DNA from: Peribacillus loiseleuriae
GTDB taxonomy: Bacteria > Bacillota > Bacilli > Bacillales > DSM-1321
Length of the DNA stretch: 64,000 bases
Reading direction: 5' to 3'
NCBI RefSeq assembly: GCF_001183985.1
Contig: NZ_LFZW01000001.1
Location: forward strand, 1,147,812-1,211,811
Made by a program: the position numbers and the translations under genes. Below, in pieces: positions 15,282 to 62,696 of this stretch. The notes under the pieces are model-generated. The model ran no database searches. It saw nothing but the letters and a program-made list of their open reading frames with translations, and was not told the DNA's origin. Position 1 is the first letter of the stretch, and every line of letters starts with the position of its first letter.

Positions 15282-16409
15282 ATGAAGCACGTAGAATTGA
15301 TGGATATTTCCAAGTCGTACGATAAACAAACCAATGTATTGGATGAAATTAACCTTTCGATTAACAAGGGTGAGTTCTTTGTTTTAGTCGGTCCCTCTGG
15401 ATGTGGAAAAAGCACATTATTAAGAATGGTTGCAGGGTTAGAAGAAATAACCGGAGGCGTACTGAAGCTAAATGATGAAGTAGCAAATCATCTACCACCT
15501 AAAAATAGAAATTTATCTATGGTTTTTCAAAATTATGCACTTTACCCACATTTAACAGTAGAGCAAAATATCCTTTTTGGTTTAGATGTTAAGAGGGTTA
15601 ATAAAAAAGAACAAAAAAGAAGACTCATGGAAACGGCAGAAATGATCGGTTTAAGTGAATTATTGAAAAGAAAACCTAAGGAACTATCTGGTGGCCAAAG
15701 GCAGAGAGTGGCATTGGCTAGGTCAGTTGTAAGTGAAGCACCACTTTGCTTAATGGATGAACCACTATCAAATTTAGATGCCAAATTGCGGGCGCATATG
15801 CGCGTTGAAATACGTAGATTGCAAAGAAAGTTGGGTCTCACAATGATCTATGTCACCCATGATCAAGTCGAGGCAATGACAATGGGTGACAGGATTATGG
15901 TTTTGAATGATGGGAAAGTACAACAAGTTGGAAAACCGATTACTTTATATAACGAACCAGCCAATACATTTGTAGCCTCTTTTATTGGCTCCCCAAAGAT
16001 GAATATGGGAAAAGCGGAGTTATTCGTTGAGAATCGTCAAATTAAAGTGGAGGACAAGCTTACGTTTCATTTAAGTCCATCAGATTTAATACATATACCA
16101 GCAGACAAAAAGACAATGATTGGCATTAGAGCAGAACATATTTATCCAGCAACTGAACAAGATGCAACTAATTATTTGGAAGTCGTTGGTGTGGAGCAGT
16201 TAGGAAATGAAACGATTATTGTTTTTGAAGAATTAGGAGGCCATCTATGGAATGCTAAATGGCCGGGCCAATGGGCGATTAATCTGGGTGATAAGGTTCC
16301 GGTTAACATTTCAGTTCAAAATTTTTGTTTCTTTGATGCAGAAAATGGTCAATTAATACAACCCGCATATCAAGAACAAAATCAAGAGCAAGAGGTCATC
16401 GCACAATGA
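15282..16409 (+). CDS. ugpC: ABC importer ATPase, UgpC/MalK type
   Basis: 375 residues: an ATPase domain with Walker [11 protein letters not shown]-loop FQNYALYPH, signature LSGGQRQR, Walker [12 protein letters not shown] and H-loop THDQ, then a C-terminal regulatory OB-type domain (MGIRAEHIYP). This is the CUT1-family layout. It energises the adjacent permeases UgpA and UgpE; its stop overlaps the start of ugpA by four bases. GGAGG lies 7 bases before the ATG. With a UgpB-like lipoprotein and phosphodiesterases next door, uptake of glycerol-3-phosphate or glycerophosphodiesters is the likely role; sugar uptake is the alternative. The promoter region carries no clear Pho box that I can defend. 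Confidence 0.84.
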   Translation: MKHVELMDISKSYDKQTNVLDEINLSINKGEFFVLVGPSGCGKSTLLRMVAGLEEITGGVLKLNDEVANHLPPKNRNLSMVFQNYALYPHLTVEQNILFGLDVKRVNKKEQKRRLMETAEMIGLSELLKRKPKELSGGQRQRVALARSVVSEAPLCLMDEPLSNLDAKLRAHMRVEIRRLQRKLGLTMIYVTHDQVEAMTMGDRIMVLNDGKVQQVGKPITLYNEPANTFVASFIGSPKMNMGKAELFVENRQIKVEDKLTFHLSPSDLIHIPADKKTMIGIRAEHIYPATEQDATNYLEVVGVEQLGNETIIVFEELGGHLWNAKWPGQWAINLGDKVPVNISVQNFCFFDAENGQLIQPAYQEQNQEQEVIAQ

Positions 16410-17344
16410 ATACAGAATCTGCTATGCCGTTTGAGTATAATCAAGTTCATTTCGAGGAGTTAAAAAAACAACAGCGTAAAAAAGTTTTCTTGAAAGGCCT
16501 TTTATTCTTATTACCCTCATTACTTTTATTTAGTATTTTTATATTTTATCCAATGATCCGCACGGTATATTTAAGTTTCTTTTTAACAAATCAAGCAGGT
16601 ATAACAACAGTTTTTGTTGGAATGCAAAATTATATCGATATCTTCACATCTCCAATATTTATGAAAAGTTTAACATCAACATTTTTATTTGTTTTATTCA
16701 CAGTACCGGGAACGATTATTGTAAGCTTGTTTTTGGCAGTTATTGCAAATGAAAAGATAAAAGGGATCGGCTTTTTCCGAATGATATTTTCATCCACAAT
16801 GGGGGTATCTGTAGCTGCTGCTTCTGTTTTTTGGCTATTTTTATTTCACCCGAGTATTGGATTTTTTAACAAAATATTAGTGACGTTCGGTTTTGACAAA
16901 ATCGGTTGGTTAACGAATCCAGAATGGGCTCTTGCTTCTGTTTCATTATCAACAATTTGGATGAATATTGGTTTCACATTTTTAATTATTCTTGGTGGGT
17001 TGCAATCCATTGACTCTCACCTATATGAAAGTGCAAATATAGATGGTGCGGGATTTTTTTACAAATTACGGCGGATTACGATCCCTATGCTTTCTCCTAC
17101 CTTATTCTTTGTAGTCACAGTTTCAATCATTAATTCCTTCCAAACCTTTGGCCAAATCGATATGTTAACAAAAGGCGGGCCAAGTAACGAAACAAATCTT
17201 ATCGTTTACTCGATTTATCGTGAAGCGTTTGTAAACTATCAGTATGGTACAGCAAGTGCACAGGCTGTCATCTTGTTCATTATTATACTCATCATGACAG
17301 TGATCCAGTTCAAGCTTGGAGAAAGGAAGGTCCATTATCAATGA
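16406..17344 (+). CDS. ugpA: ABC importer permease, UgpA type
   Basis: 312-residue integral membrane permease of the MalF/UgpA class, with a long cytosolic N-terminus, about six helices and the EAA loop ESANIDGAGFFYKLRRITIPML that docks on the ATPase. The start ATG overlaps the ugpC stop and its own stop overlaps the ugpE start, so the three genes are translationally coupled. It forms the channel with UgpE. Confidence 0.87.
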   Translation: MNTESAMPFEYNQVHFEELKKQQRKKVFLKGLLFLLPSLLLFSIFIFYPMIRTVYLSFFLTNQAGITTVFVGMQNYIDIFTSPIFMKSLTSTFLFVLFTVPGTIIVSLFLAVIANEKIKGIGFFRMIFSSTMGVSVAAASVFWLFLFHPSIGFFNKILVTFGFDKIGWLTNPEWALASVSLSTIWMNIGFTFLIILGGLQSIDSHLYESANIDGAGFFYKLRRITIPMLSPTLFFVVTVSIINSFQTFGQIDMLTKGGPSNETNLIVYSIYREAFVNYQYGTASAQAVILFIIILIMTVIQFKLGERKVHYQ

Positions 17345-18159
17345 GGATGCCACTTTCTAAAAAGATCAGCTTATATACATTGCTCACGGTATCGGCATTT
17401 CTAGTATTTGTCCCTATCATCTTTGCTTTCTTGATGAGCTTTATGAACAGTCAGGATGCGATGTTAGGTAAAATAATCCCTTCTGTTTGGACACTTGATA
17501 ATTACGTGAAGGCATTCGAACGTTTACCATTGCTGAAATTTCTATTCAACAGTTTAATGACTTCTCTGCTCATTATGATCGGTCAGTTAGTCTTGTCTAG
17601 TTTAGCGGCTTACGCATTTGTTTTTCTGAAATTTAAAGGGAGGGATGCTTTATTCTTTTTGTTTATCGCAACCATGATGATCCCATTTGAAGCGTCGATT
17701 ATCCCGAACTTTCAAACGGTTAAAGGGATGAATTTATTAGATACATATCCAGGGTTGGCCTTGCCTTTCTTGGCTACAGCATTTGGTACTTTTTTATTAA
17801 GACAAACATTTAAACAAATTCCTAAAGAACTTAAAGAGGCAAGTGAAATTGCTGGGATGGGCCATTTTAAATTTTATTTAACAGTCGTATTACCCGTTGC
17901 AAAAACAAGTCTAGTTACATTAGCACTTTATGGCTTCTTAACGGCTTGGAATATGTACTTATGGCCGCTTTTATCCACAACAAATGATCATGTACGAACC
18001 GTCCAAATTGGCTTAAAGCAATTGCAATCACAAGAAACAGTCAATCAATGGGGAGTTGTAATGGCTGGTGCCATGGTTGTGGCCATTCCTACGCTGATTT
18101 TATTATTCGTAGGGCAGAAGAGACTCCAAAAAGGGTTAGCTGAAGGTGCACTTAAATAA
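17341..18159 (+). CDS. ugpE: ABC importer permease, UgpE type
   Basis: 272-residue MalG/UgpE-class permease with six helices and the EAA loop EASEIAGMGHFKFYLTVVLP. It is the second half of the import channel. It follows ugpA with a four-base overlap. The gap to ugpB is 51 bases and contains a fresh ribosome binding site (AAAGGAG), consistent with higher translation of the binding protein. Confidence 0.87.
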   Translation: MRMPLSKKISLYTLLTVSAFLVFVPIIFAFLMSFMNSQDAMLGKIIPSVWTLDNYVKAFERLPLLKFLFNSLMTSLLIMIGQLVLSSLAAYAFVFLKFKGRDALFFLFIATMMIPFEASIIPNFQTVKGMNLLDTYPGLALPFLATAFGTFLLRQTFKQIPKELKEASEIAGMGHFKFYLTVVLPVAKTSLVTLALYGFLTAWNMYLWPLLSTTNDHVRTVQIGLKQLQSQETVNQWGVVMAGAMVVAIPTLILLFVGQKRLQKGLAEGALK

Positions 18160-18210
18160 TGATGGGTTCAATGATTATCAAATAGAAAAAAACTAAAGGA
18201 GACTATTACA

Positions 18211-19554
18211 ATGATAAAAAAGTTTTTCGCTTTACTTATGGCAAGTTTATTAGTGATTCTAGCTGGTTGTGGTTCAAATCAAACATCAAGTACTGAGAAA
18301 GGATCTACATCTGAAAAAGATGACAAACAAGTTGTTACATTCTGGCATTCCATGAGTGGCGTGCCTCAAGAAACATTAAATAGTATTGTAGAGGAATATA
18401 ATAATTCCCAAGATAAGGTTCAAGTAAATGCAGAATTCCAAGGAACGTATGAAGAGTCACTTCCGAAGTTTCATAGTGTTGGTGGAACGAAAGATGCTCC
18501 GACCATGATTCAAGTACAAGAAATTGGTTCAATGTCTATGATTAATAGCGGGAATATTGAAGCTATTCAAAAATTTATCGATGCTGAAAATTATGATATG
18601 AGTGGTCTCGAAGAAAATATTGTGAACTATTACAAAGTAGATGACAAATTCTATTCCATGCCTTTTAACTCCTCAACACCTGTCATGTACTACAATAAAG
18701 ATGCATTTAAAAAAGCTGGATTAGATCCTGAAAAAGCTCCAGAAACGTTTGAAGAAGTAGAAGAAGCAGGTAAGAAAATTGTTAAAAGTAATGACCAAAT
18801 GAAAGGATTCGCTTTACAAGCATATGGTTGGTTATTTGAAGAGTTATTAGCTAATCAAGGTGGATTACTGTTAAATAACGACAATGGTCGCACAGATACA
18901 CCTACAGCAGTCGAATTTGATAATGAAAAAGGGAAATCAATCTTCGAATGGGCAAAAAGAATGACGGATGCTGGAACTTTTGCAAACTATGGAACAAACT
19001 CTGATAATATGCTTTCTGGCTTCTTAGCAGGCGATGTAGCGATGTTTTTACAATCATCAGCTTCTTCAAGAGACGTGATTGACAATGCTCCTTTTGAAGT
19101 GGGCGTAGCTTTCTTACCTCATCCTGAAGCTGAGGAACGTCAAGGTGTTGCGATTGGCGGTGCAAGTTTATGGATGTCAAGCGGGAAAGAAGAAGCAGAA
19201 CAAAATGCAGCTTGGGAATTTATGAAATATTTACAAACACCAGCAGTACAAGCTAAATGGCATGTAGGAACAGGCTACTTTGCCATTAATCCAGCTGCTT
19301 ATGATGAGCAAGTTGTTAAAGATGCATACAAAGAAATGCCACAATTACAAGTTTCTGTACAACAGCTTCAAGCTACAAAACCGTCTTTTGCGACACAAGG
19401 CGCATTAATGGATATGATTCCGGCAGAACGTAAAATTATCGAAACCGCACTTGAAACAGTTTATAACCGTGGAGATGTAGATGAAGCATTCAATAGTGCT
19501 GTTGAACAGGTGAATGCAGCGATTGAACAATCTAATGCAGCAAGAGGAAAGTAA
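18211..19554 (+). CDS. ugpB: Glycerol-3-phosphate-type solute-binding lipoprotein, UgpB-like
   Basis: 447 residues. The N-terminus is a lipoprotein signal with lipobox LAGC (Cys20), so the mature protein is anchored outside the membrane. The body is a family 1 extracellular solute-binding protein; FWHSMSGVPQ, the FQGTYEESL segment, and MIQVQEIGS are close to UgpB proteins, which bind glycerol-3-phosphate and glycerophosphodiesters. It delivers ligand to UgpAE. A terminator follows, so the transport operon ends here and the phosphodiesterase gene downstream is separately transcribed. Confidence 0.85.
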   Translation: MIKKFFALLMASLLVILAGCGSNQTSSTEKGSTSEKDDKQVVTFWHSMSGVPQETLNSIVEEYNNSQDKVQVNAEFQGTYEESLPKFHSVGGTKDAPTMIQVQEIGSMSMINSGNIEAIQKFIDAENYDMSGLEENIVNYYKVDDKFYSMPFNSSTPVMYYNKDAFKKAGLDPEKAPETFEEVEEAGKKIVKSNDQMKGFALQAYGWLFEELLANQGGLLLNNDNGRTDTPTAVEFDNEKGKSIFEWAKRMTDAGTFANYGTNSDNMLSGFLAGDVAMFLQSSASSRDVIDNAPFEVGVAFLPHPEAEERQGVAIGGASLWMSSGKEEAEQNAAWEFMKYLQTPAVQAKWHVGTGYFAINPAAYDEQVVKDAYKEMPQLQVSVQQLQATKPSFATQGALMDMIPAERKIIETALETVYNRGDVDEAFNSAVEQVNAAIEQSNAARGK

Positions 19555-22510: not shown

Positions 22511-23878
22511 TTAAAACAAATGCTCACAATATTCCCGAATTAGTCTCGAGGCTTTCGTTTGGCTGATGCATAGGTCTTTCGCAACTTTCCTAGACGATTT
22601 ATATGTTTGGTAAGACCTCCTAATTAAGAACCGTTTCGTTTCATCAAGTGCTTTATCGTATGACGTGGGAAGAGCAAGCTGGGTGACTTGTTCTACATTG
22701 TCTGTGATTAAATCAGGCAAGTCAGCCACCTGAATGACTGAGTCGCTAATGACGACTAAACGTTCAATTAAGTTTTCCAGCTGACGGACATTGCCTGGCC
22801 ATGAATAATGAATTAATATGTTCAGGCATTCTTCCGAGATGACTTTGTTGTCATGGTATTTTTCATTGAATTTATTTAAGAAATTGTAAGTGAGTGGAAT
22901 AATATCTTCTTTTCGCTCACGCAATGGCGGCAGGTGAATATCGATCACATTCAACCGATAAAATAAATCTTCACGGAATCTTTTATCATTAACCATTTCA
23001 ATTAAATTCTGGTTCGTTGCAGCAATGATACGGATGTCGACTTTTTTCATTTCGCTGCCACCAACGGGAATAAATTGTTTATCCTGAATGACTTGTAAAA
23101 GCTTAGCCTGTAAAGCGAGCGGCATTTCTCCGATTTCATCAAGAAAAACAGTACCGCCATCCGCCGCCTCGATCAATCCAGATTTTCCGGTTTTACTAGC
23201 ACCGGTAAATGCGCCTTTGGAATAACCGAATAGTTCCGATTCGAGCAGTTCTTCTGGAATGGCTGCGCAGTTAATCGTCAAGAACGGACCGCTTTTCCGC
23301 TTACTAATCTGGTGAATGAAATGGGCAAAGACGCCTTTCCCTGTTCCTGATTCTCCCTGAATTAAAATTGTTGAATCAGTTGGCGCCACTTTTTCGCAGA
23401 AAGACAGGATGCGGTGGATTTTTCCGCTGTTTGTAATAATTCGACCCAATTCATTATCATTTTGAGTTGTTGTTAACTCATCAACCGTTTCATTTGCTTT
23501 TACCATTTTATACGTATGTGTTTCGGTAGAAGTAATAACAACGAGATCGATTTCCCCCCTATCATTTAAGATTGGAATCGCTGACGTCAGTAATTCAGCC
23601 CCGATATACGTTTGTTGCTTCATATAGCAAGGTTTTTTTCTTTTATATACTTCTGGTACGATGGATGGTTTCCAATAACCTTTTTCAAATAGGTCGATAT
23701 TGTATTGGCCAATGACGTCAGTTGGTTTCAGGCCATAATGGCGCTCACATGCCTGGTTTACGTAAAGAATTCGCTTATCGCAATCGAGAACGAAAATTTC
23801 ATCTGAGGAGTGATCGAGAATTTTTAATAGAGTTTGTAGTGTCATTTCAACATGATCTGTTGTATTTGGACTTTTCAT
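22511..23878 (-). CDS. Sigma-54-dependent transcriptional activator (PAS, AAA+, Fis-type HTH)
   Basis: About 455 residues. An N-terminal PAS domain (roughly residues 15-120) probably senses a ligand. The central AAA+ domain has Walker A GESGTGKG (about 175-182) and GAFTGA (about 222-227), the loop that contacts sigma-54, plus FLDEIGE and the GNVRQLENL segment. A short Fis-type helix-turn-helix ends the protein. The architecture resembles RocR/AcoR-type SigL activators of Bacillus. The frame is open to 23929, but GAGG lies 7 bases before TTG 23881 and 10 before ATG 23878, so the start is one of these. It is divergent from the reductase/Rieske operon, whose upstream region holds a sigma-54 promoter, and is the obvious regulator of it. 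Confidence 0.9.
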
Positions 23879-23960
23879 CAATTGTATTTCCTCACTTTCA
23901 AAAAGGTAATGAGTTATTTTTGATGACAAATTTATGATATTGAACTAATTATAACTCAAC

Positions 23961-23975
23961 TTGATAGCGTTTTCA
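23961..23975 (+). promoter_or_regulatory. Candidate cre (CcpA) site in the divergent regulatory region
   Basis: TTGATAGCGTTTTCA matches WTGNAANCGNWNNCA at all fixed positions but one. It lies between the activator gene and the -24/-12 promoter. The core ATAGCGT recurs inverted at about 24004-24010, so the pair could instead be a binding site for the activator. Confidence 0.45.
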
Positions 23976-24019
23976 TGTTAAATTTTGGATTTTTCGTGTG
24001 TTTACGCTATTTTTAAAAG

Positions 24020-24036
24020 TTGGCACGCTACTTGCA
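24020..24036 (+). promoter_or_regulatory. Sigma-54 (SigL) -24/-12 promoter
   Basis: TTGGCACGCTACTTGCA contains TGGCAC and TTGC at the exact spacing of the sigma-54 consensus (TGGCAC-N5-TTGC). It lies about 110 bases before the first gene of the Rieske operon and next to the divergent GAFTGA-type activator. Confidence 0.93.
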
Positions 24037-24144
24037 TATATAAAAGTGACAGGATGCAAAGCAAGCGTGTCAATAATCTTTACCTGATTTTTAACATTAA
24101 CAACGCGGAAATCTACAAATTAATACAGCTAGGGAGGAATGAGG

Positions 24145-25164
24145 ATGGAAAAACAGCATGAGGTTTTTGACATCACAATTATTGGAGGAGGGCCAGTTGG
24201 TTTGTTTACTGCTTTTTATGCGGGAATGCGCCAGGCATCGGTGAAAATTATCGAAAGTCTTCCTCAGCTCGGCGGCCAGTTGTCTGCTTTGTACCCTGAA
24301 AAATATATTTATGACATTGCTGGTTTTCCGAAAGTATGGGCCCAGGAACTCATTGATCAATTACTCGTGCAAGTGAATCAGTTTGAAACGACTATTTGCC
24401 TCAAGCAATCGGTTGAAAGCATCGTTCGAACAGTCGATGGGGGGTTCGCGATTACGACGAACGAAGAAACTCATTATACAAAAGCTGTGATTATCACAGC
24501 TGGAAATGGAGCATTCCAACCGCGTCACTTGAAGATTGAAGGTGAAGAAAAATTTGAAAACGTTAACCTTCATTATTTCGTAAAGGATTTAGACCGATTT
24601 AGCGGAAAGAAAGTAGTTGTGTTTGGCGGTGGCGATTCAGCAGTTGACTGGGCACTTATGCTTGAACCGATTGCGGAAAAAGTAACGCTGATTCACCGAC
24701 GAGACAAATTCCGCGCCCATGAGCATAGTGTAGACCAGTTGAAACAGTCAAAAGTGGAGGTTTTAACGCCATACGTGCCTACTAAATTAGTCGGCGATGA
24801 AAAAATAGAAAAAGTGATTGTGACTCAGGCCAAGAGTGGAGAATCGATAGAATTTGAAGTCGATGATGTCCTTGTTAATTACGGCTTTGTTTCCTCGCTA
24901 GGCCCGATTAAAGACTGGGGTCTTGAAATCGAAAGTAATTCCATCGTCGTTAACTCTAAGATGGAAACGAATATCACAGGCATATATGCTGCAGGTGATA
25001 TTTGCACGTACGAAGGGAAAGTGAAGTTGATCGCAAGTGGTTTTGGTGAAGCGCCGACAGCTGTTAGTAATGCAAAAGTATACATTGATCCGAGCTCGAA
25101 AGTTCAGCCTCTTCACAGCACCTCCATTATGGGGGAAAAAGAAAAAAGCGGATCAGTTGTTTAA
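24145..25164 (+). CDS. Ferredoxin-NADP+ reductase, YumC/YcgT type
   Basis: 339-residue flavoprotein of the thioredoxin-reductase-like FNR class: FAD motif [14 protein letters not shown] near the N-terminus, NAD(P)H motif [11 protein letters not shown] mid-protein, and the second FAD segment [14 protein letters not shown]. The CxxC of thioredoxin reductases is absent, which fits ferredoxin reduction. ATG 24139 is in frame but only one base from GGGAGG; ATG 24145, 7 bases away, is the better start. It opens the sigma-54-dependent operon and should pass electrons from NADPH to the ferredoxin encoded next, which would feed the Rieske oxygenase. Confidence 0.88.
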
Positions 25165-25184
25165 TTTTATTTAAATGAATATAA

Positions 25185-25445
<261 letters not shown>

Positions 25446-25546
25446 TTAAGTAGATTGTTCATTTATTACTAAAAATGTTTGATAAAATCTTAGCCTTGCT
25501 TGCAAGTGATTACTACTATTTATGTATGTATGGGGGAGAATGAATT

Positions 25547-26632
25547 ATGGCTTATAATAAAGTAAAAAATGCAACGAATCGAACGTTTGAAAGAACATTG
25601 ACTTATGATAAATATACAGATCCGAAAGTACTTGAAAAAGAAATGGATCTTGTATTCTCTAAATCTTGGCAGCTTGTAGGGCATGTCAGCCAATTGGAGA
25701 AAGTAGGTTCTTTCTTCACGACTGAAGTAGCAAACGAACCAATTATCGTCAATCGCGGCCAGGATGAAGTTATCCGAGCTTTTTATAATGTTTGCCCACA
25801 TCGTGCGACAAAGCTTGAAAAAAGTGAATCTGGTAAGAAGAAAATTTTACAATGTAGTTATCACGGCTGGACGTTCAAATTGGATGGAACATTAAATAAA
25901 GCGCCGAACTTTAGAGGCGAAGAAGATGAAGCTTGTGTACAGGACGCTTGTTTGCGCTCGGTCCGTATGGAAATCATGGAATCTTTAATCTTTGTCAACT
26001 TAGACGATAACGCGCAGCCACTTAGCGAATCTTATGGTGATTTCTTCGACCGTTTGAACAAAAATCCGTTTTTAAGTGAGTTAAAAAGGACACACCAAAC
26101 ATCACGGGTGATTAAAGCGAACTGGAAAGCGTTTATTGATAATTATTTAGAATGTGACCACTGCCATGTCGCTCATCCAAGCTTTGTTCAAGCATTAGAC
26201 ATGGATGATTATCAAATCATTACATGTGAAAACTATTCTCTTCAAGGTTCAATCGTTAAACCAGATAAAAATTATGGAACAGTTGATTTAAATCAGGCGG
26301 AAATGCAAGGTGGATCTTTCTACTGGCTATGGCCAAACTTAATGTTGACTATTTATCCGGGTCCTGGCAATATGGCGACGATTCAATTGGTGCCAATTGA
26401 TCATGAAACAACTTTGATTCTTTACACGTATTATTTCCGTGATGAGAATTTGACTCAAGAAGAAAAAGATTTAGTTGCTTTTGCTGAACAAGTTCGCCTG
26501 GAAGATGTTGAGCTTGTTGAGTTAGAACAAATCGGTTTCCGCTCTCGTGCATTTAATAAAGGTAGATATTCGTCTTCAGAAAAAGCGATTGTACAATTTC
26601 ATGAAATGGTATTGGAGGCCCTCAATGAGTAA
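25547..26632 (+). CDS. Rieske non-haem iron oxygenase, catalytic subunit (carnitine/betaine monooxygenase-like)
   Basis: 361 residues. The Rieske [2Fe-2S] ligands are C83-x-H85 and C103-x2-H106. The mononuclear iron site is H205-x4-H210, with D320 (in RLEDVEL) as third ligand. The residue three before H205, normally the bridging aspartate, is glutamate (E202 in NYLECDHCH). From memory, this Glu is a feature described for carnitine monooxygenase CntA (E205, H208, H213, D323), and the spacing here is the same with an offset of three. That places the protein among oxygenases acting on quaternary amines. It lacks an adjacent CntB-type reductase; the ferredoxin and FNR genes upstream would replace it. 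GGGGGAG precedes the ATG. The substrate is inferred only: carnitine, betaine or stachydrine-like. Confidence 0.88.
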   Translation: MAYNKVKNATNRTFERTLTYDKYTDPKVLEKEMDLVFSKSWQLVGHVSQLEKVGSFFTTEVANEPIIVNRGQDEVIRAFYNVCPHRATKLEKSESGKKKILQCSYHGWTFKLDGTLNKAPNFRGEEDEACVQDACLRSVRMEIMESLIFVNLDDNAQPLSESYGDFFDRLNKNPFLSELKRTHQTSRVIKANWKAFIDNYLECDHCHVAHPSFVQALDMDDYQIITCENYSLQGSIVKPDKNYGTVDLNQAEMQGGSFYWLWPNLMLTIYPGPGNMATIQLVPIDHETTLILYTYYFRDENLTQEEKDLVAFAEQVRLEDVELVELEQIGFRSRAFNKGRYSSSEKAIVQFHEMVLEALNE

Positions 26633-28076
26633 ATTAGCGAATGAAGCACAATCGACGAAGCAGTTTTTGATGATTAATGGTGAAAAAGTAGAACCAGCGA
26701 AATATGCTCCACTCTACTCGCCTTACTCGGGGGATGAAATCGCCCAAATTGCGATGGCAGATAAAGAGCTGACTATTCAGGCAATTACCGCTGCTTACAA
26801 CGCACGTGGAGTAATGGCAAAAATGCCGGCATATCAGCGAGCAGAAATTTTGGGGAAAGTTGCAGTATTATTAACAGACAAAGCGGATGAAGCGGCAGAG
26901 ATTATTTCTCGCGAATCTGCCAAGCCGATTATGTTCGCAAAAGCGGAAGTAGCAAGAACGATTGAAACGTATAAATTTTCTGCTGAAGAAGCAAAGAGAA
27001 TACACGGAGAAACGATTCCTTTTGATGCAGCTGTTGGCGGCGTCGGCCGAATCGGTTACACTTTAAGAGAAGCGATTGGGGTCATTGGAGCGATTACTCC
27101 ATTTAACTTTCCAATGAACCTCGTTGCTCATAAGGTAGGTCCGGCAATAGCAGCTGGCAATACCATTGTTCTGAAGCCAGCGTCACAAACCCCGTTGTCT
27201 GCTCTTTTTATCGCGGGAATTTTTGAAGAAGCTGGTCTTCCTGCTGGCGTATTAAATGTGGTAACAGGTCCCGGAGGTACGGTCGGGGAAGCGATTGTAG
27301 AGGACGATCGGGTAAGTATGGTCACATTCACAGGCAGCCCGAGCGTCGGTATCGGTATTCGGAACAAGGCTGGCTTGAAAAAGACAACCCTTGAACTTGG
27401 ATCAAATTCGGCATTAATTATCGACAAAGACGTTGACATTGATCAAATTATTGAACGTTGCATTATGGGGGCTTTCTCTAACCAGGGCCAAGTGTGTATT
27501 TCCTTACAGCGTGTATATGCGCATGTAGATGTGTATGAAGAATTTGTTGCGAAGTTCACAAATGCTGCTAAGAAGTTAAAAATTGGCGACCCACTAGATC
27601 CTGACACATATATTTCAGCTTTAATTTCAAAAGGGGAAGCAGAACGTGTACTAGACTGGATTGAGGAAACGAAAGGTAGTTCTGCAACAATTGAAGCGGG
27701 TGGCAAACTGCAAGCTGGAATTCTTCTGCCAACCATTATTACAGAAGCGGATCATTCGTTAAAAGTATCTTGTCAAGAAGCATTTGCTCCAGTTGTCGTT
27801 GTGAACAAAGTGGCTTCAGTTAAAGAAGCAATTGAGCAAGTTAACGATTCTCGCTTCGGATTACAGGCTGGCATCTACACAAACAATGTGAAAAACGCTT
27901 TGTACGCTTCACAGGAATTGCATGTGGGCGGTGTAATCATTAATGATGTGCCAACTTATCGTGTCGACCAAATGCCATACGGTGGTGTGAAAGACAGTGG
28001 CACAGGTCGTGAAGGAATAAAATACGCGGTGGAAGAAATGACTGAAATGAAATTGGTCGTTTGGAACCAAAGCTAA
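26625..28076 (+). CDS. NAD(P)-dependent aldehyde dehydrogenase
   Basis: 483 residues of the ALDH superfamily: ITPFNFPMN, the cofactor-binding segment VTFTGSPSVG, the catalytic Glu in LELGSNSA, and the nucleophile Cys in NQGQVCISLQR. The frame extends upstream to 26547, but GGAGG lies 6 bases before ATG 26625, which overlaps the Rieske gene by 8 bases, so this is the start. In this operon the likely substrate is the aldehyde released by the oxygenase; for carnitine cleavage that would be malic semialdehyde, giving malate. Relatives include lactaldehyde and succinate-semialdehyde dehydrogenases, so the substrate remains inference. Confidence 0.9.
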   Translation: MSKLANEAQSTKQFLMINGEKVEPAKYAPLYSPYSGDEIAQIAMADKELTIQAITAAYNARGVMAKMPAYQRAEILGKVAVLLTDKADEAAEIISRESAKPIMFAKAEVARTIETYKFSAEEAKRIHGETIPFDAAVGGVGRIGYTLREAIGVIGAITPFNFPMNLVAHKVGPAIAAGNTIVLKPASQTPLSALFIAGIFEEAGLPAGVLNVVTGPGGTVGEAIVEDDRVSMVTFTGSPSVGIGIRNKAGLKKTTLELGSNSALIIDKDVDIDQIIERCIMGAFSNQGQVCISLQRVYAHVDVYEEFVAKFTNAAKKLKIGDPLDPDTYISALISKGEAERVLDWIEETKGSSATIEAGGKLQAGILLPTIITEADHSLKVSCQEAFAPVVVVNKVASVKEAIEQVNDSRFGLQAGIYTNNVKNALYASQELHVGGVIINDVPTYRVDQMPYGGVKDSGTGREGIKYAVEEMTEMKLVVWNQS

Positions 28077-28095
28077 AAAAAAGAGGGAGATCAGT

Positions 28096-29190
28096 GTGAA
28101 ACAATTTAAAATAGCAGTTATTGCCGGAGACGGTATCGGTCCTGAAGTCATTCGTGAAGGGGTAAAAGTATTAAATAAAGTGGCTCAACTGGATTCAAAC
28201 TTCCAATTTGAATTTACATATTTTCCGTGGGGATGTGAGTTTTACGCGGAAAATGGAAAAATGATGGATGATGATGGAATTGACCAGCTGAAAGAATTTG
28301 ACGCGATTTATTTGGGTGCAGTCGGATTTCCCGGCGTCCCTGACCACATCTCACTGTGGGATCTGCTGTTAAAAATTCGTAAAAGCTTTGATCAATATGT
28401 GAATATTCGACCTGTGACATTGTTAAAAGGAGCGCACTTGCCACTTGTTGATGTGAAACGCGAAGACATCGACATGCTGTTTATTCGCGAAAACAGTGAA
28501 GGTGAATATTCAGGCGCAGGGGACTGGCTGTTTAAAGGGCAGGAACACGAAGTCGTTTTGCAAAACAGTGTGTTTTCCCGTAAAGGCACGGAGCGTATCA
28601 TCCGTTACGCGTTTGAAACGGCGAAAAAAGAAGGCAGGTCGTTGACAAGTATATCTAAAGCAAACGCTCTCAATTATTCAATGGTTTTCTGGGACCAGGT
28701 ATTTGAAGAAGTAAGTGCCCAATATCCTGAAGTTGAAACAGCTTCTTATCTTGTTGACGCGGCAGCAATGCTGATGATTAAAGATCCAAAACGCTTTGAA
28801 GTCGTTGTGACATCAAACTTGTTCGGCGATATTTTAACGGATTTAGGCGCAGCTCTTGCTGGTGGGATAGGCCTTGCAGCTGGAGCGAATATAAATCCTG
28901 AAAGAGATTTCCCATCGATGTTTGAGCCGATTCATGGATCAGCACCTGACATTGCAGGCAAAGGCATCGGTAACCCGCTCGCATCAATTTGGTCAGCAAG
29001 CCAGATGCTTGACTTTTTCGGCTATGAAGCGCATGGAAAAGTTGTTCTTGAGGCGATTGAGCAGCTTTTGTTAGAAGATCAAGTACTAACACCAGATATG
29101 AATGGGACGGCGTCTACTTCAGAAGTGGGAGACCGAGTGTCAGAACTTATTGCGACAATCATATCATCTAAGGATATAGCAGTGAAATAA
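28096..29190 (+). CDS. Tartrate / D-malate dehydrogenase (decarboxylating), TtuC/YcsA family
   Basis: 364-residue member of the isocitrate/isopropylmalate dehydrogenase family: GDGIGPEV near the N-terminus, NIRPVTLL, IRENSEGEYSG, NLFGDILTDLGAALAGG and FEPIHGSAPDIAGKG. The segments IRENSEGEY and AANINPERDFPSMFEP-like composition favour the tartrate/D-malate subgroup over LeuB or Icd. Such enzymes oxidatively decarboxylate D-malate to pyruvate and CO2. GTG start after GAGGGAG. As the last enzyme of the operon it would complete a route from L-carnitine: cleavage keeps the C3 stereocentre, so (R)-carnitine gives (R)- that is D-malate. No leu genes are nearby. Confidence 0.85.
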   Translation: MKQFKIAVIAGDGIGPEVIREGVKVLNKVAQLDSNFQFEFTYFPWGCEFYAENGKMMDDDGIDQLKEFDAIYLGAVGFPGVPDHISLWDLLLKIRKSFDQYVNIRPVTLLKGAHLPLVDVKREDIDMLFIRENSEGEYSGAGDWLFKGQEHEVVLQNSVFSRKGTERIIRYAFETAKKEGRSLTSISKANALNYSMVFWDQVFEEVSAQYPEVETASYLVDAAAMLMIKDPKRFEVVVTSNLFGDILTDLGAALAGGIGLAAGANINPERDFPSMFEPIHGSAPDIAGKGIGNPLASIWSASQMLDFFGYEAHGKVVLEAIEQLLLEDQVLTPDMNGTASTSEVGDRVSELIATIISSKDIAVK

Positions 29191-29245
29191 TGAATAGCTA
29201 GGTATCGTGTGAAGAAAATTTTTTTCATGCAATACCAGCTAGATT

Positions 29246-29259
29246 TTAAAGCGCTTTCA
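29246..29259 (+). promoter_or_regulatory. cre (CcpA) site before the symporter genes
   Basis: TTAAAGCGCTTTCA differs from the ideal palindrome TGAAAGCGCTTTCA at one base. It lies just upstream of the ribosome binding site of the small DUF3311 gene, where CcpA would act as a roadblock or repressor under glucose. Confidence 0.7.
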
Positions 29260-29275
29260 ATAAGGGGGATTTAAA

Positions 29276-29464
29276 TTGAAAAAACTTATTATTTTGCTAA
29301 GTCTCATACCTGCAATTGGTTCATTAACGGTTATGAATCGTTTGGAACCTTATATTCTTGGATTACCCTTCATTGTTTTCTGGTCAGCCTCTTGGCTGAT
29401 AATAACGTCAATCTGTCTTTATATTAGCTGCATTCTTCAAGAGAAACAGGAGGAGAATAAATGA
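29276..29464 (+). CDS. DUF3311-type small membrane protein, symporter partner
   Basis: 62 residues with two hydrophobic helices (about residues 3-20 and 28-50) and a charged tail EKQEENK. The start is TTG, 7 bases after GGGGG. Its stop overlaps the start of the sodium:solute symporter gene by four bases. Such small proteins are commonly paired with SSS-family symporters (for example YhjC with YhjB in B. subtilis). It may help assembly or activity of the transporter; the exact role is unknown. Confidence 0.8.
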   Translation: MKKLIILLSLIPAIGSLTVMNRLEPYILGLPFIVFWSASWLIITSICLYISCILQEKQEENK

Positions 29465-30942
29465 ACAGTTCCATATTAATTATTATTGCGACTCTTGTTT
29501 TGGCTATTTATTTAGGTATCCGCGCACGAAAAGGGCAGGAAATGAAGCTAGAGCAGTGGGCAGTTGGGGGCAGGAGCTTCGGTGGTTTAATCATGTTTGT
29601 TCTAATGGCAGGAGAGATGTTTTCAACGTTTGTATTCCTCGGGGCAAGCGGAGCAGCCTACAGGTTTGGTGCTCCAGCAATTTATATATTTTGTGCCCTT
29701 ACTTATATCGTTCCTTTCTGGATTTTACCCCCTATTTGGCGTTATGCAAAAAAGCATAACTTGCTGACACAATCTGATTTTTTTGCAAAAAAGTATAATA
29801 GTAAGCCATTGGGATTGCTAGTCGCGATTATTGGTGTCGTTTCAATGATTCCTTATATTGTTATCCAATTAAAAGGCTTCCAAATTATTGCTTCAGAGGC
29901 ATCGTTCGGTATGATTTCTCCAACGATAGCTGTTTGGATGGGCATGATAGTTGTGACCGTTTTCGTTTACGTTTCAGGAATTCACGGATCAGCATGGACA
30001 TCTATGCTAAAAGATATCCTCATGCTTGTCGTTATTCTGATTTTGGGCATTTACTTGCCGATTCATTTTTTCGGTGGTATACAGCCGATGTTTGAAACAT
30101 TGGAAGCAACCAAACCAGGCTTCTTATTGTTTGCTGACAAGGGCTTGAGCATCCCGTGGTATATTTCCCTTTGCGTCATTGTTGCATTGGGTCAGTATAT
30201 GTGGCCGCATTGTTTCGGCGCCAGTTTATCTTCTCATAACGAATCAACCCTGCGGAAAAACGCGGCAATATTACCTTTGTATCAAATCGTTCTTGTCTTT
30301 ATTATATTTATCGGCTTTACTGCTGCTATTCAAATCCCGAACTTACAAGGAGCAGAATCGGATCTTGCTTTGTTTAAACTAGCAAAGACAGCATTTCCAT
30401 CTTGGTTTATCGGCGTTGTCGGATCAGCCGGGATGCTTGCAGCTCTTATTCCTTGTTCGATGTTAATTTTGACGGCATCGACAATTTTATCAAAAAATAT
30501 TTATAAAGCCATTAAACCTAATACATCGAATGAAAAACTTGCTAAATTAACACGTATTTTCGTCCCAATCGTATCATTAATTTCCTTGTATTTTACATTC
30601 TTTGGTGGCAACACAATGCTTTCATTGCTGACGATGGCTTATACCTTTGTACTGCAGCTGTTCCCGCCATTAATATTCAGTTTATTGAAGAAAAACCCAA
30701 TCAGTAAAGCGGGTGCTTCTGTTGGAATGATTGTTGGGGTGGGATTGGTTGCTTACTACACATTGGCAGGGACGACAATGGCTACGTTATTCCCATCGTC
30801 TCCTCAATTCATTCAGGACCTTGATATTGGGATTGCGTCAATTTCTGTGAACACGATCATCATGCTTGCTGTCAGTGCCTTCACACGCAAAGTCAAACTA
30901 ACGATTCAAGAAGATACTGTCAGTCAGAAAATTACCTCTTGA
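29461..30942 (+). CDS. Sodium:solute symporter (SSS family)
   Basis: 493 residues, about 13 hydrophobic helices, with the SSS N-terminal pattern VGGRSFGGLIMFVLMAGEM and the GHYMWP-like segment LGQYMWPHCFGASLSSHN. It should import an organic solute with sodium. Positioned after the Rieske/ALDH/D-malate dehydrogenase genes and behind a cre site, it is the likely importer of the operon's substrate, although carnitine uptake is more often by BCCT or ABC systems. The DUF3311 partner gene overlaps its start. Confidence 0.86.
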   Translation: MNSSILIIIATLVLAIYLGIRARKGQEMKLEQWAVGGRSFGGLIMFVLMAGEMFSTFVFLGASGAAYRFGAPAIYIFCALTYIVPFWILPPIWRYAKKHNLLTQSDFFAKKYNSKPLGLLVAIIGVVSMIPYIVIQLKGFQIIASEASFGMISPTIAVWMGMIVVTVFVYVSGIHGSAWTSMLKDILMLVVILILGIYLPIHFFGGIQPMFETLEATKPGFLLFADKGLSIPWYISLCVIVALGQYMWPHCFGASLSSHNESTLRKNAAILPLYQIVLVFIIFIGFTAAIQIPNLQGAESDLALFKLAKTAFPSWFIGVVGSAGMLAALIPCSMLILTASTILSKNIYKAIKPNTSNEKLAKLTRIFVPIVSLISLYFTFFGGNTMLSLLTMAYTFVLQLFPPLIFSLLKKNPISKAGASVGMIVGVGLVAYYTLAGTTMATLFPSSPQFIQDLDIGIASISVNTIIMLAVSAFTRKVKLTIQEDTVSQKITS

Positions 30943-31138: not shown

Positions 31139-32890
31139 ATGAACATACACAAAATCGTTTTAGAAAAAAATGTACCTTGTCAGCTATCGGATAACACAAT
31201 TTTATATGCTGATGTTTATCGCCCAGATGATGATCAACAGCATCCAGTATTACTTACCCGTCTACCATATAATAAAAGTCATCCATTTTATTCTCATCGC
31301 TATTTGGACACGAATCGATTAGTCGAAAATGGGTATGTGGTGATTGTTCAAGATGTAAGGGGACGTTTTGCTTCAGAAGGAGATTTTTTCCCCTTTAAAT
31401 ATGAAGGAAAAGATGGATTCGAAGCTGTTGAATGGGCTGCTGAGCTGCCATATTCTAATGGGAAAGTTGGGATGTATGGCCTTTCTTATTACGGATTTAC
31501 TCAGTTACTAGCAGCTGCTGAAAATCCGCCACATTTAAAGGCGATCTTCCCTGCTCAGACATTTAATGATTTAAGGGAAGGAAGCTTTTATCAAAATGGA
31601 ACGTATGGGCTAGGATTGAATATAACTTGGGCTTTAGAATCAATTGCGCCAGATGCGATAAAACGTAAATTTACTGATCCAAAGGAGTATCAACAGAAAA
31701 TGCGTCGCTTAGCTGAACTAATCGATAACATTGAAGAAGAATTTCGCTTCTTCCCACTTAAAGAATGGCCCGCATTAAAGGAACTAGGTGTTGCCAATTA
31801 CTTTTATGAAATGTTGGAATATGATTTGAAAGATAAGGTGTGGGATGAACTTTCGTTAGGAGTAGAAAAATTAAAAGGAATAACTGTTCCTGCGTTTCAT
31901 CTGGGGGGATGGTACGATAATTTACTAAGTCCAACCATTGCAAACTATCTTCATTCAAAAGAAAACGTAAACCAGCCACAAAAGTTAATGATCGGTCCGT
32001 GGACACATGGTGATTTTAGTTCCCAGATTGGGCAAAGAAAATTTGGACAACACGCTTCACAGGACTGGATTGATTATAAGGAAGATTTAACAAATTTACA
32101 TCTCCGCTGGTTCGATTATTGGTTAAAAGAAAAAGAAACAAAAATTCTACAAGAAAAACCAGTGAAAATTTTTGTGATGGGGACGAATACATGGCGGGAA
32201 GAAGATGCATGGCCACTCCCACAAACGAAATATGTTCCTTACTATTTCCATAGCAAAGGGAAAGCAAATACTAGATTTGGGGACGGCAGGTTGTCCATTG
32301 ACATGCAAGGAGAAGAAATGACAGATCATTTTATTTTTGACCCATCAAACCCAGTACCAAGTACGGGTGGAGGTACCCTTTTTGATCAAATAGGTTCGAT
32401 TGGCCCGATGGATCAAAGAATGGTCGAAGAACGAGAAGATATTTTAGTATATGCGAGTGAGGTATTAAGAGAGGCTATGGAAGTGACCGGTCCAATAAAG
32501 GTTATTCTCTATGCAAAAACCGATGCCTGCTCCACCGATTTTACAGCTAAATTAGTGGATGTTGCTCCGGATGGGACCGCTTTTAATTTAACAGATGGGA
32601 TTGTTCGATCATCTTTTCGTAACAGCTATAAAAAGGAAACTGAAAGTATTCAAGGTCAAATCCTACCTTATGAAATCGATCTATGGGCAACGAGTAACGT
32701 GTTCCTAGCTGGTCACCAACTAAGAGTGGAGATTTCGTCTAGTAACTTCCCACGCTTCGATGTGAATTTTAACAATGGTACAACCACGCTGAACGGTACA
32801 AATTATAGTACAGCGAGCCAAACTATTTATCACAATGAAGTGTACCCCTCTCATATTTTGTTACCGGTCATCCCATGCAATGAAAACTAA
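31139..32890 (+). CDS. CocE/NonD family alpha/beta hydrolase (X-Pro dipeptidyl-peptidase S15-like)
   Basis: 583 residues. N-terminal alpha/beta hydrolase: LYADVYRPDD, DVRGRFASEG and the nucleophile elbow GLSYYG (Ser about residue 118). An all-helical cap follows, with the HLGGWYDN and GPWTHGDF segments giving the acidic and His residues. A C-terminal jelly-roll domain (from ~340, ending EISSSNFPRFDVNFNNG) completes the CocE layout. Such enzymes hydrolyse esters or amides (cocaine esterase, acyl-amino-acid ester hydrolase). GGAAGGAAG precedes the ATG. It has its own terminator and may or may not work with the Rieske operon upstream; hydrolysis of an acyl ester of the same substrate is possible but unsupported. 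Confidence 0.83.
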   Translation: MNIHKIVLEKNVPCQLSDNTILYADVYRPDDDQQHPVLLTRLPYNKSHPFYSHRYLDTNRLVENGYVVIVQDVRGRFASEGDFFPFKYEGKDGFEAVEWAAELPYSNGKVGMYGLSYYGFTQLLAAAENPPHLKAIFPAQTFNDLREGSFYQNGTYGLGLNITWALESIAPDAIKRKFTDPKEYQQKMRRLAELIDNIEEEFRFFPLKEWPALKELGVANYFYEMLEYDLKDKVWDELSLGVEKLKGITVPAFHLGGWYDNLLSPTIANYLHSKENVNQPQKLMIGPWTHGDFSSQIGQRKFGQHASQDWIDYKEDLTNLHLRWFDYWLKEKETKILQEKPVKIFVMGTNTWREEDAWPLPQTKYVPYYFHSKGKANTRFGDGRLSIDMQGEEMTDHFIFDPSNPVPSTGGGTLFDQIGSIGPMDQRMVEEREDILVYASEVLREAMEVTGPIKVILYAKTDACSTDFTAKLVDVAPDGTAFNLTDGIVRSSFRNSYKKETESIQGQILPYEIDLWATSNVFLAGHQLRVEISSSNFPRFDVNFNNGTTTLNGTNYSTASQTIYHNEVYPSHILLPVIPCNEN

Positions 32891-35259: not shown

Positions 35260-36396
35260 TTATCTGACTGCTTCTTTTACCTGGTTTACTTCAGATAAAG
35301 GTCTGATGCGTTGTTCTGTTTCGACATCGAAGAAATGCGCTTTATTCATATCCAGTGCCATTTCCAAATTATCGCCTGCTTGAACAATTGTCCGAGCATC
35401 AACACGTGCAACGAAATCTTGGCCTCCTAGTGAAGAGTAAAGCATGAATTCAGCCCCCATTAGCTCAGCTACTTCAATATGGGCATTCATTCTCGTCTCT
35501 GGAGAAGATTCAATGAATAAAGGCTCATCGTGGAAGTCTTCAGGGCGAATTCCCAAAATGATTTCTTTTCCTACATAGCCTTGATCACGAAGAAGCTTCA
35601 TTTTTCCTTCAGGGATTGCGATAGATTGGTCGCCAATTTTAACAAACCCATTTTCCAGTTTTCCATTTAAGAAGTTCATGGCTGGAGAACCGATGAAACC
35701 GCCCACAAAAACATTTTCAGGTCTTTCATACACATCTTTAGGAGCACCAACTTGTTGGATGATACCGTCTTTCATAACAACAAGGCGTGTGGCCATCGTC
35801 ATTGCTTCTGTTTGGTCATGGGTAACATAAATTGTTGTTGTGTTTAAGCGTTTGTGCAGTTTTGCAATTTCAGCACGCATTTGCACACGTAGCTTAGCAT
35901 CAAGGTTCGACAATGGTTCATCCATCAGGAAGACTTTTGCGTCACGGACGATTGCACGACCAAGGGCAACACGTTGACGTTGACCACCGGAAAGGGCTTT
36001 AGGTTTACGGTCCAAGTATACTTCTAGACCGAGAATTTTCGCCGCTTCTTTCACGCGTTGATCAATTTCAGCTTTCGGCATTTTACGAAGTTTTAGCCCG
36101 AATGCCATATTATCATATACAGACATATGTGGGTATAGTGCATAGTTTTGGAAGACCATCGCGATATCACGATCTTTAGGTGGAACATCATTCACACGCT
36201 TTCCATCAATGAAGAAATCACCTTTTGAAATTTCTTCAAGTCCTGCGATCATGCGTAATGTTGTCGATTTACCGCAACCAGAAGGACCTACGAAAACGAT
36301 AAATTCCTTATCTTCAATTTGTAGATTGAAATCTTCTACAGCCGTTACTTTATTATCGTAGATTTTAAAAATATGTTCTAATTGTAATTCTGCCAT
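35260..36396 (-). CDS. msmX: Multiple-sugar ABC importer ATPase MsmX (UgpC family)
   Basis: 378 residues: an ATPase domain with Walker [11 protein letters not shown]-loop [28 protein letters not shown] and the H-loop, then a C-terminal MalK-type regulatory domain ([12 protein letters not shown]). It is encoded alone, without permeases, which is the hallmark of MsmX, the shared ATPase of several sugar importers in Bacillus. GGGAGG lies 8 bases before the ATG. A perfect-match cre site lies 41-55 bases upstream. It is clearly distinct from the UgpC-type gene at 15.3 kb. Confidence 0.9.
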
Positions 36397-36436: not shown

Positions 36437-36451
36437 TTGGAAGCGCATTCA
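36437..36451 (-). promoter_or_regulatory. cre (CcpA) site upstream of msmX
   Basis: TTGGAAGCGCATTCA fits WTGNAANCGNWNNCA at every fixed position. It lies between msmX and the PucR/CdaR-type gene, probably within the msmX promoter. Confidence 0.75.
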
Positions 36452-36511
36452 AAATAGTATGGACAGGGTGCACAAAAATGATAGCTTGTTTTTATGCATG
36501 TTGCCATAGAT

Positions 36512-59600: not shown

Positions 59601-59626
59601 CTAATCCTATGGGTGCCTCTTTATGA
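56621..59626 (+). CDS. yhaN: SbcC/Rad50-like ATPase YhaN with central membrane segments
   Basis: About 1001 residues. N-terminal Walker A in FFGKNEAGKST (about residues 28-38) and a C-terminal ABC-type half ending LIIDDSFVNFD, separated by long coiled coils, as in Rad50/SbcC. In the middle (roughly residues 477-520) are two hydrophobic helices (FISLILLGLSIYSIF and FFVVALVAIWIGFFFF), so the coiled-coil apex is predicted to sit in the membrane. The frame is open from 56525, but GGGGGGAGAG fits TTG 56621 and gives MRIREIYVYGYG. Follows yhaO directly; the nuclease partner is likely YhaO. Confidence 0.9.
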   Translation: MRIREIYVYGYGKMENERFTNLTELHVFFGKNEAGKSTIMSFIHSILFGFPTKVQNELRYEPKMHAKYGGLLIVATKQYGEIRIERVKGKATGDVSVTFANGEVAGEEILNNILHGMDKAYYQSIFSFDLQGLQGLHTMGEGDIGKYLLSAGLVGNDKILDAEGRLQKELDLRFKPSGQKPLLNSQMKQLKVHQQNMKNSGDDQLNYNELQSELKEIGEELEELKKQSQVNEEQLFYTGEYLRIKPLAEEQAVIQSRLDRLGDQVFPIDGLKRLEQLNSLLIQHEAKQVSLQQQYQELITGKEKMAPSPFLEEHKESIETAIESSALLEQLELDKHKEDKALELVSKEIDNLKDDLSFKGHVEAILQLDFSTFMKEKIRTLAQKKRVLSNEKEQLDERDKRVKGRLEQSEMRLEELKCRRLPKEQRLKLETAKDQRQNKQYHIVKKEMLDEQIADLERNYKVQEKKERDQLSKKRGIFSFISLILLGLSIYSIFTKQTILTFFFVVALVAIWIGFFFFKEKHTLADDIRRLSEAKEKRVSVEKEESQTRSMEYESDAALRLLEQDRELERLIANEAFKKEEREQAFDDVIHDFETWEASWKTAQAEAMTIVKVWGIPDEAIEHDLEEVFGLLEKLKVKVEERNVIRKNNEYIHSEIQNRKKTLFYYTGELGEYPGTWQEALTILKRALNDLFEKKIQLKQHVEEETKTMVELENHKSEKDYVIGQIQELYDKANVADEDDFREKALRAEERLQLLSQLKLVVMQLEQSRLQGNQLTEYMGMDISKYTIENLEAIRNEITSRQSTLLEKQSDWKHRIKQLEEGGLYDDRMHQFHEARQVFNEDAKDWAKYAVARSLLNQTIDAFKKERLPSVINKAEEYFSYLTDGQYSRIFLNHDTEGFTVQRSDHLMFDVNEVSRGTAEQIYVAIRLALADHTFKEDPFPLIIDDSFVNFDSKRTGNTIALLAKISEQRQIIFFTCHEHLLNYFSQGSLTYLSNPMGASL

Positions 59627-59735
59627 GCAAAAAATAGGAATATTGTTTCATCATGAAAATCTAATAAGTTGAAACCGAAATATTGCAAGATATGGTATAC
59701 TATTGATACTTAACATAGAACGGGGGTATATACAC

Positions 59736-60680: not shown

Positions 60681-60687
60681 TGATACA

Positions 60688-60727: not shown

Positions 60728-60749
60728 TTTATCCGAAAAGGAGGATGTC

Positions 60750-62686: not shown

Positions 62687-62696
62687 AATTAGATAT

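Follow-up and report, generated by a model that had tools for sequence, protein, structure and literature searches.

The window analysed here, a stretch of 64,000 nucleotides from Peribacillus loiseleuriae (contig NZ_LFZW01000001.1, positions 1,147,812 to 1,211,811), contains a Rieske oxygenase gene cluster behind a sigma-54 promoter. From its sequence and that of related loci we consider it probable that the cluster is an inducible, carbon-repressed operon by which an aerobic member of the Bacillaceae uses L-carnitine, perhaps also its O-acyl esters, as carbon source. A bolder proposal is that such operons form a second, independently wired carnitine-cleaving system of the Bacillota, with an oxygenase of remodelled pocket, electron delivery by a ferredoxin-NADP reductase (FNR) and a ferredoxin (dedicated or housekeeping), a sigma-54 activator that loops from a phased dyad and an importer swapped among three unrelated families; this we put forward as a serious but still tentative possibility.

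In the proposed scheme, the divergently encoded PAS/AAA+ activator would bind the dyad and open the sigma-54 promoter by looping, and CcpA could block the operon at a catabolite-responsive element (cre) adjoining the dyad. The substrate would enter via an SSS-family symporter with its DUF3311 partner, and a CocE/NonD-family hydrolase may release carnitine from acyl esters. Electrons would run from NADPH via the FNR and a [4Fe-4S] ferredoxin to the oxygenase, which should hydroxylate the carbon adjoining the trimethylammonium group to give trimethylamine and malic semialdehyde. An aldehyde dehydrogenase (ALDH) would convert the semialdehyde to D-malate, since the R centre of L-carnitine stays untouched, and a TTC-family dehydrogenase would oxidise and decarboxylate D-malate to pyruvate. 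The substrate, the electron path, the contact of activator and dyad and every single reaction are what we infer here. The chain from carnitine via malic semialdehyde and D-malate to pyruvate has been proven in Acinetobacter baumannii with the same stereochemical argument, and it was rebuilt in E. coli (PMC11353897). A sequence-only reading of the window had already suggested the route from carnitine to pyruvate. Its enzyme chain fits, whereas the substrate is drawn from context and four of the seven carnitine-pocket residues are absent.

The gene set of that reading was recovered in the same order and frames, with all eight genes at the exact coordinates (Table 1). Absent from it were the CocE/NonD hydrolase gene, the dyad and the perfect cre. 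The listed start of the FNR gene is the most likely one and is preceded by AGGGAGGA. The genes for oxygenase and ALDH overlap by 8 nt and those for DUF3311 and the symporter by 4 nt; a gap of 85 nt separates the dehydrogenase gene from the DUF3311 gene.

Table 1. Features of the operon and its control region (positions in the window)
Feature	Position	Strand	Basis or remark
PAS/AAA+/HTH sigma-54-dependent activator	22511..23929	-	divergent from operon; Pfam Sigma54_activat, AAA_lid_14, HTH_50, PAS
20-bp dyad TTGAACTAATTATAACTCAA, putative activator-binding site (upstream activator sequence, UAS)	23940..23959	.	found by aligning 11 loci
cre site (CcpA box)	23961..23976	-	perfect match; one base from dyad
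-24/-12 sigma-54 promoter TGGCAC-N5-TTGCA, TGGCACGCTACTTGCA	24021..24036	+	0 mismatches
TrxR-like FNR	24145..25164	+	phmmer E 2e-163 to PDB 6gas (ferredoxin-NADP reductase)
Ferredoxin, single [4Fe-4S], CxxCxxC...CP	25197..25445	+	Fer4_13; PDB 1iqz E 8.9e-31
Rieske oxygenase, CntA-like	25547..26632	+	
ALDH, lactaldehyde/ALDH21-like; proposed malic semialdehyde dehydrogenase	26625..28076	+	Pfam Aldedh
Beta-decarboxylating D-malate/tartrate dehydrogenase, TTC family	28096..29190	+	TIGR02089
cre-like site before transporter genes	29245..29260	.	one mismatch
DUF3311 small membrane protein	29276..29464	+	TTG start; Pfam PF11755
SSS-family symporter, proposed importer	29461..30942	+	Pfam SSF; best NCBIfam MctP 224.9 bits (below cut-off of 625)
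CocE/NonD-family hydrolase, proposed accessory acyl-ester hydrolase	31139..32890	+	TIGR00976 460.2 bits (cut-off 66.3)

As we read the sequences, the best evidence for a pathway from a betaine-type solute to a D-malate-like acid is the exchange of parts around the oxygenase. The comparison covered 82 loci, namely the window, the best 80 of 586 confirmed candidates and locus L083, which is not a random sample and to which some genomes contribute two loci; the own-genome loci L001, L002, L089 and L090 and the reference loci L084-L088 stand outside these rows. All neighbourhood counts are lower bounds, because genes on the far side of the oxygenase fall outside the distance windows, as happened with ALDH and dehydrogenase in L058, the dehydrogenase in L059, OpuAC-type ABC genes in L078 (all upstream) and an activator downstream in L042, L044, L048, L059 and L063. 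ALDH and TTC-type dehydrogenase both follow the oxygenase in 66/82 loci, and a beta-decarboxylating D-malate/tartrate dehydrogenase is present in 70/82. The transporter slot is variable: it holds a BCCT in 40 loci, an SSS symporter in 21, both in 2 and an OpuAC-type ABC transporter in 11, and in 8 none was found. BCCT or OpuAC-type transporters accordingly occur in 53 of the 82 operons, which strengthens the quaternary-amine reading beyond its earlier basis. In the window's genome the BCCT model found no match. The ABC genes lie between oxygenase and ALDH in the Paenibacillus loci L069-L074, an order traced in full in L069. A CocE homologue is located downstream of the oxygenase in 15/82 loci, 13 of which also have the SSS symporter. 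Locus L066 combines a BCCT with an alpha/beta hydrolase that shares 31% identity with its counterpart in the A. baumannii operon; a dehydrogenase was not found there by search.

The promoter TGGCACGCTACTTGCA is the only perfect -24/-12 match within the window. At up to one mismatch the window holds 3 matches against 1.94 expected, so a looser match by itself is at chance level. Among the related loci the picture is clear: 54 of 81 (by the rule used, L016 left no stretch) have a perfect promoter and 78 one with at most one mismatch, where first-order resampling of the same stretches gave 0.025 and 0.375, respectively. The three exceptions, L039, L078 and L079, show no upstream activator match; an activator homologue lies upstream, divergent and within 5 kb in 72/82 loci. 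The translation of the window's activator contains the motif GAFTGA, and the genome has one RpoN match. The earlier proposal of sigma-54 control is, as far as sequence features go, well borne out by promoter, AAA+ activator, upstream site and RpoN.

The dyad is situated just upstream of the activator gene start and begins 81 bp before the -24 element. The cre and dyad counts refer to 70 loci, 12 of the 82 having been dropped for lack of an upstream activator match or for a gap above 800 bases. The pattern TTGAGTTA-N4-TAACTCAA occurs with up to three mismatches in 54/70 loci (the 11 discovery loci included) against 0.1 expected, and the window dyad TTGAACTAATTATAACTCAA differs from it at two positions. 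A pattern fitted to the window dyad has its sole zero-mismatch match in the whole genome at this site; with two mismatches allowed, the matches were no more than chance would give (7 and 5, against 6 and 5 in the control). In 40 of the 64 loci with a dyad at up to four mismatches it stands 80-83 bp before the -24 element, in the remaining 24 at 69, 90-92, 100-102, 112-113, 134-136 or 185 bp. These spacings resemble whole helical turns, which would fit looping by an enhancer-binding protein; the p values for helical phasing (0.003 for unique spacings, 0.037 for cluster centres) belong to a measure chosen post hoc that ignores kinship and are descriptive only.

The perfect cre adjoining the dyad has counterparts in the activator-operon intergenic regions of 20/70 loci at up to one mismatch (1.0 expected). 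Carbon control had been read from the second site, ahead of the transporter genes, and this too was confirmed, with one mismatch: among the 12 loci in which dehydrogenase and DUF3311 are less than 700 bases apart, 9 have a cre with at most one mismatch ahead of DUF3311 (0.1 expected). At greater looseness such 16-base sites are common, with 50 in the window at up to two mismatches against 41.5 expected. A further perfect cre was noted at 36437-36452, just upstream of an ABC ATPase gene (35260-36396, minus strand). Sigma-70 promoters and terminators were not more frequent than in shuffled sequence.

The closest solved structure to the window's oxygenase is CntA, by sequence and by model, and it ranks above the aromatic dioxygenases. 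The identity to A. baumannii CntA is 36%. Retained are the Rieske ligands, the 2-His-1-Asp iron site, the bridging Glu205 and the pair Cys206/Cys209 (CntA numbering), and bridging Glu, Cys pair and Asp are conserved in all 79 Bacillota relatives aligned (the open reading frame rule gave truncated proteins for L043, L061 and L065, which are left out). Equivalents of Tyr203 (Y200 here), Tyr225 and Tyr295 are all present in the window; the latter two are kept in 79/79 relatives, and position 203 is aromatic in every one of them (70 Y, 9 F). An aromatic residue at 203 for a cation-pi contact is the criterion for group Va (PMC7948474). The oxygenase is predicted to work like CntA, yet it is not a CntA by membership: in the tree the enzyme falls outside the proteobacterial CntA clade. 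Two arguments for carnitine were rejected. First, identity to CntA is no proof, as oxygenases from other kinds of clusters, in Rhizobium, Ruegeria, Alisedimentitalea and on a Pseudomonas plasmid, come about as close to the window's enzyme (34-36%); second, phylogeny is none either, the clades being separate.

The ALDH has as its closest PDB entries three bacterial ALDHs, followed by ALDH21 and lactaldehyde dehydrogenase. It is 36% identical to the malic semialdehyde dehydrogenase (MSA-DH) of A. baumannii, whose catalytic Cys290 and Glu256 are conserved. In moss, ALDH21 functions as a succinic semialdehyde dehydrogenase (PMC7823795). Since malic semialdehyde and lactaldehyde are both alpha-hydroxyaldehydes, a member of the lactaldehyde/ALDH21 family is chemically plausible. 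The substrate arginines of ALDH21 we take to be R121 and R457; arginines seem to stand at these positions in the alignment of the window ALDH, a correspondence set aside as evidence. The last enzyme passes the D-malate/tartrate model TIGR02089 (497.4 against 470.4 bits), just misses the tartrate model NF006048 (482.6 against 501) and stays below the leuB cut-off (TIGR00169, 258.8 against 353.2). It is 50% identical to the MDH of the A. baumannii carnitine operon, for which D-malate activity is proven (PMC11353897). Specificity for D-malate is a presumption, made doubtful by a 3-isopropylmalate model that accepts the enzyme as well (see below).

Several findings weigh against carnitine as the substrate. 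Only three of the seven published carnitine-pocket residues are kept in the window oxygenase, and F258, N270, Y315 and F319 of CntA are replaced by G, T/S, A/M/T/V and a gap in 79/79 Bacillota sequences (an alignment-dependent assignment, the region being a loop); the 10 CntA/YeaW rows chosen retain the whole pocket. In the tree, which has long branches flagged, the Bacillota oxygenases (50 rows) form a clade of their own with support 100/99, apart from the 10 CntA rows (100/100), and the clade nearest to CntA consists mainly of alphaproteobacterial oxygenases (97/90, possibly a long-branch join). Of the MSA-DH substrate residues, R166 is H, R284 is S and S447 is Y in the window ALDH. The last enzyme clears the cut-off of a 3-isopropylmalate dehydrogenase model, too (NF002898, 400.4 against 393 bits), which the A. 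baumannii MDH does not reach (362.6 bits), and it is 50-54% identical to many 'tartrate dehydrogenases' of the TTC family. We know of no SSS/DUF3311 system that carries carnitine. The altered pocket, the differing ALDH residues and doubts over the specificity of the last enzyme tell against the view that the operon simply copies that of A. baumannii.

We considered several alternatives. The same operon logic could mainly serve another trimethylammonium compound, such as an O-acylcarnitine or another hydroxylated betaine, that is cleaved to an alpha-hydroxy or C4 aldehyde, with free carnitine as a minor or later substrate. Three bulky residues of the CntA pocket are smaller or missing here, so that another ligand might fit, and the co-occurrence of CocE with SSS as well as the lactaldehyde/ALDH21 type of the ALDH would suit such a compound. 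However, the BCCT and OpuAC transporters of the sister operons suit free betaine-type solutes, the dehydrogenase points to D-malate, and L059 has, beside an oxygenase 61% identical to the window's, an ALDH that shares 51% identity with the proven MSA-DH and retains R166, R284 and S447. Taken together, we regard this alternative as rather unlikely.

The second alternative concerns the electron supply. FNR and ferredoxin had been proposed to take the place of CntB in the operon, and this stands insofar as both genes are present and a syntenic CntB was not found. A second FNR (70% identical) and a second ferredoxin (72%) are encoded elsewhere in the genome, so that the operon copies look like dedicated duplicates. 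FNR was found in 37/82 loci and ferredoxin in 28/82, both together in 26, FNR only in 11 and ferredoxin only in 2. Neither is present in 43/82 operons, so the two are not obligatory members; operons without them could use the housekeeping pair. The assumption that the genome lacks any CntB-like reductase proved false, since contig C2 encodes a 38% homologue. FNR and ferredoxin might accordingly be passengers of the operon, with another reductase such as the one on C2 feeding the oxygenase. This is unlikely in our view: in 39/82 loci at least one of the two is encoded between the sigma-54 promoter and the oxygenase gene, a CntB homologue was found in one of the 82 stretches only, and the C2 reductase has DmmA-like and haem-dependent N-demethylase genes as neighbours. 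The single CntB-like reductase of the survey (L049) lies upstream of the oxygenase at a distance of about 3.5 kb and shows 29% identity.

The neighbours on contig C2 (205 kb, positions 58500-63600; 6086-11024 of L128) form a DmmABC-like cluster of DmmA-like, haem-dependent N-demethylase alpha-like and CntB-like reductase genes with a HUMPS-family gene nearby, and a dimethylamine and formaldehyde route is possible there. A link between this cluster and the operon was rejected: PF22289 exceeds 50 bits only in the window's genome (G000) and in G009 among 36 genomes of the genus (19/36 are above the cut-off, the others scoring 27.7-31.5 bits), and G009 has a best oxygenase match of only 4.3e-41. 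No match to DUF1989, which we take to be linked to trimethylamine N-oxide demethylase, was found in the genome.

Third, the oxygenase of the operon could act on choline, glycine betaine or gamma-butyrobetaine. Choline monooxygenase, too, is a member of group Va (PMC7948474), and the BCCT of L006 is nearest to a glycine-betaine BCCT model (599 bits, missing the cut-off of 650), with 294.7 bits for the carnitine/gamma-butyrobetaine antiporter model. Yet the products betaine aldehyde, dimethylglycine and succinic semialdehyde need no D-malate/tartrate dehydrogenase, and at position 203 the window has Tyr in place of the Asn typical of demethylating group Vb enzymes (PMC7948474). With a score of 149.8 of the 670 bits demanded by the GbcA model NF058607, a glycine betaine or stachydrine demethylase was rejected, and the alternative as a whole appears improbable. 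Finally, it is very unlikely that the operon degrades something other than a quaternary amine and that its oxygenase resembles CntA through distant kinship only: half of the pocket is unconserved, all names are by homology and the last enzyme passes the isopropylmalate model as well, but the aromatic residue at 203 with the Cys pair, the rank of CntA above aromatic dioxygenases and the BCCT or OpuAC transporters of the sister operons speak against it.

The proposed carnitine operon resembles that of A. baumannii (CntA/CntB, MSA-DH, MDH, BCCT and CarR; locus L084; PMC11353897) in having a Rieske oxygenase of the same broad group, an ALDH, the related dehydrogenase and a transporter, and in the chain to D-malate and pyruvate deduced from them. 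It differs in using FNR and a [4Fe-4S] ferredoxin in place of CntB, a sigma-54 activator in place of the LysR-type CarR and SSS/DUF3311 in place of the BCCT; furthermore, the ALDH is of another subfamily and the identity of the oxygenases is low. YeaW of E. coli, about 37% identical to the window's oxygenase, forms a two-component system with the reductase YeaX (PMC9508527); L-carnitine did not support growth of E. coli strains (PMC11353897). Stc2, a stachydrine demethylase, and GbcA, acting on glycine betaine (group Vb), are also of Rieske group V, and Stc2 shares the Cys pair (PMC10952381).

The claim that no such Gram-positive arrangement has been described was overstated, as cntA-like genes of Bacilli are in print (PMC9508527, PMC11353897, PMC5433236). 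The operon of Sporosarcina newyorkensis was named as possibly trimethylamine-forming (PMC11353897), and Bacillus smithii is listed among cntA carriers (PMC9508527). Another survey set aside 34 unique Bacilli proteins, S. newyorkensis included, as not true cntA, because they are phylogenetically distant and lack a syntenic cntB; cntB was not found in S. newyorkensis (PMC5433236). These genes probably belong to the same clade as the window oxygenase. Eight of 11 Sporosarcina loci (L025, L028, L032, L033, L035, L036, L038, L062) contain FNR, ferredoxin, oxygenase, ALDH, dehydrogenase and BCCT. The available text of PMC5433236, PMC9508527 and PMC11353897 names no redox partner or regulator for the Bacilli genes, and that of PMC5209329 and PMC12316311 does not describe the operon. 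An FNR/ferredoxin or sigma-54 arrangement for carnitine oxygenases of Bacillota was not found among the titles and abstracts listed, from a library with few subscription papers. The redox, regulatory and transporter architecture looks undescribed so far.

The cluster is found in many soil spore-forming bacteria, with a patchy distribution: an oxygenase of at least 91% identity occurs in 8 of 36 genomes of the genus, the own genome included. A complete version of the operon (L083) resides near spore-germination genes on the 189-kb plasmid pMLY91_1 of Priestia megaterium (98609-107592 of the record). ALDH, dehydrogenase or both were not found by search in L026, L029, L034, L039, L057 and L066; L039 retains oxygenase, ferredoxin, a short piece of FNR and a BCCT, as if decaying. 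TTC-type dehydrogenases 76% identical to the window's are encoded on the P. frigoritolerans plasmids NZ_OY970401.1 and NZ_CP084540.1, on which no close oxygenase was found; the sole plasmid record with one of at least 60% identity is that of L083.

Paralogous Bacillota oxygenases of 46-50% identity occur in other settings and probably serve other substrates. In L109 the neighbour is a BCCT beside ger spore-germination genes; in L110 a thiamine pyrophosphate (TPP) enzyme, a Glu-dehydrogenase-like protein and an amino-acid permease were seen, with the same layout by gene size in L111; L112 contains FNR, a TPP enzyme and an M20 amidohydrolase. In the window itself an ABC transporter gene set of the glycerol-phosphate/sugar type lies at 15282-19554, followed by two glycerophosphodiester phosphodiesterase-like genes up to 22259 (names given by eye from the lists of open reading frames).

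Many Bacilli operons carry FNR and ferredoxin and others may borrow them, which suggests why CntB is missing. If the Bacillota do hold such a second carnitine-cleaving system, the Bacilli sequences set aside in cntA surveys would be real trimethylamine producers. The changed pocket sharpens the question of the substrate, and the operon offers a testable electron chain for a Rieske oxygenase together with a clear control region of sigma-54 promoter, dyad and cre. The data predict that soil spore-formers would use carnitine aerobically.

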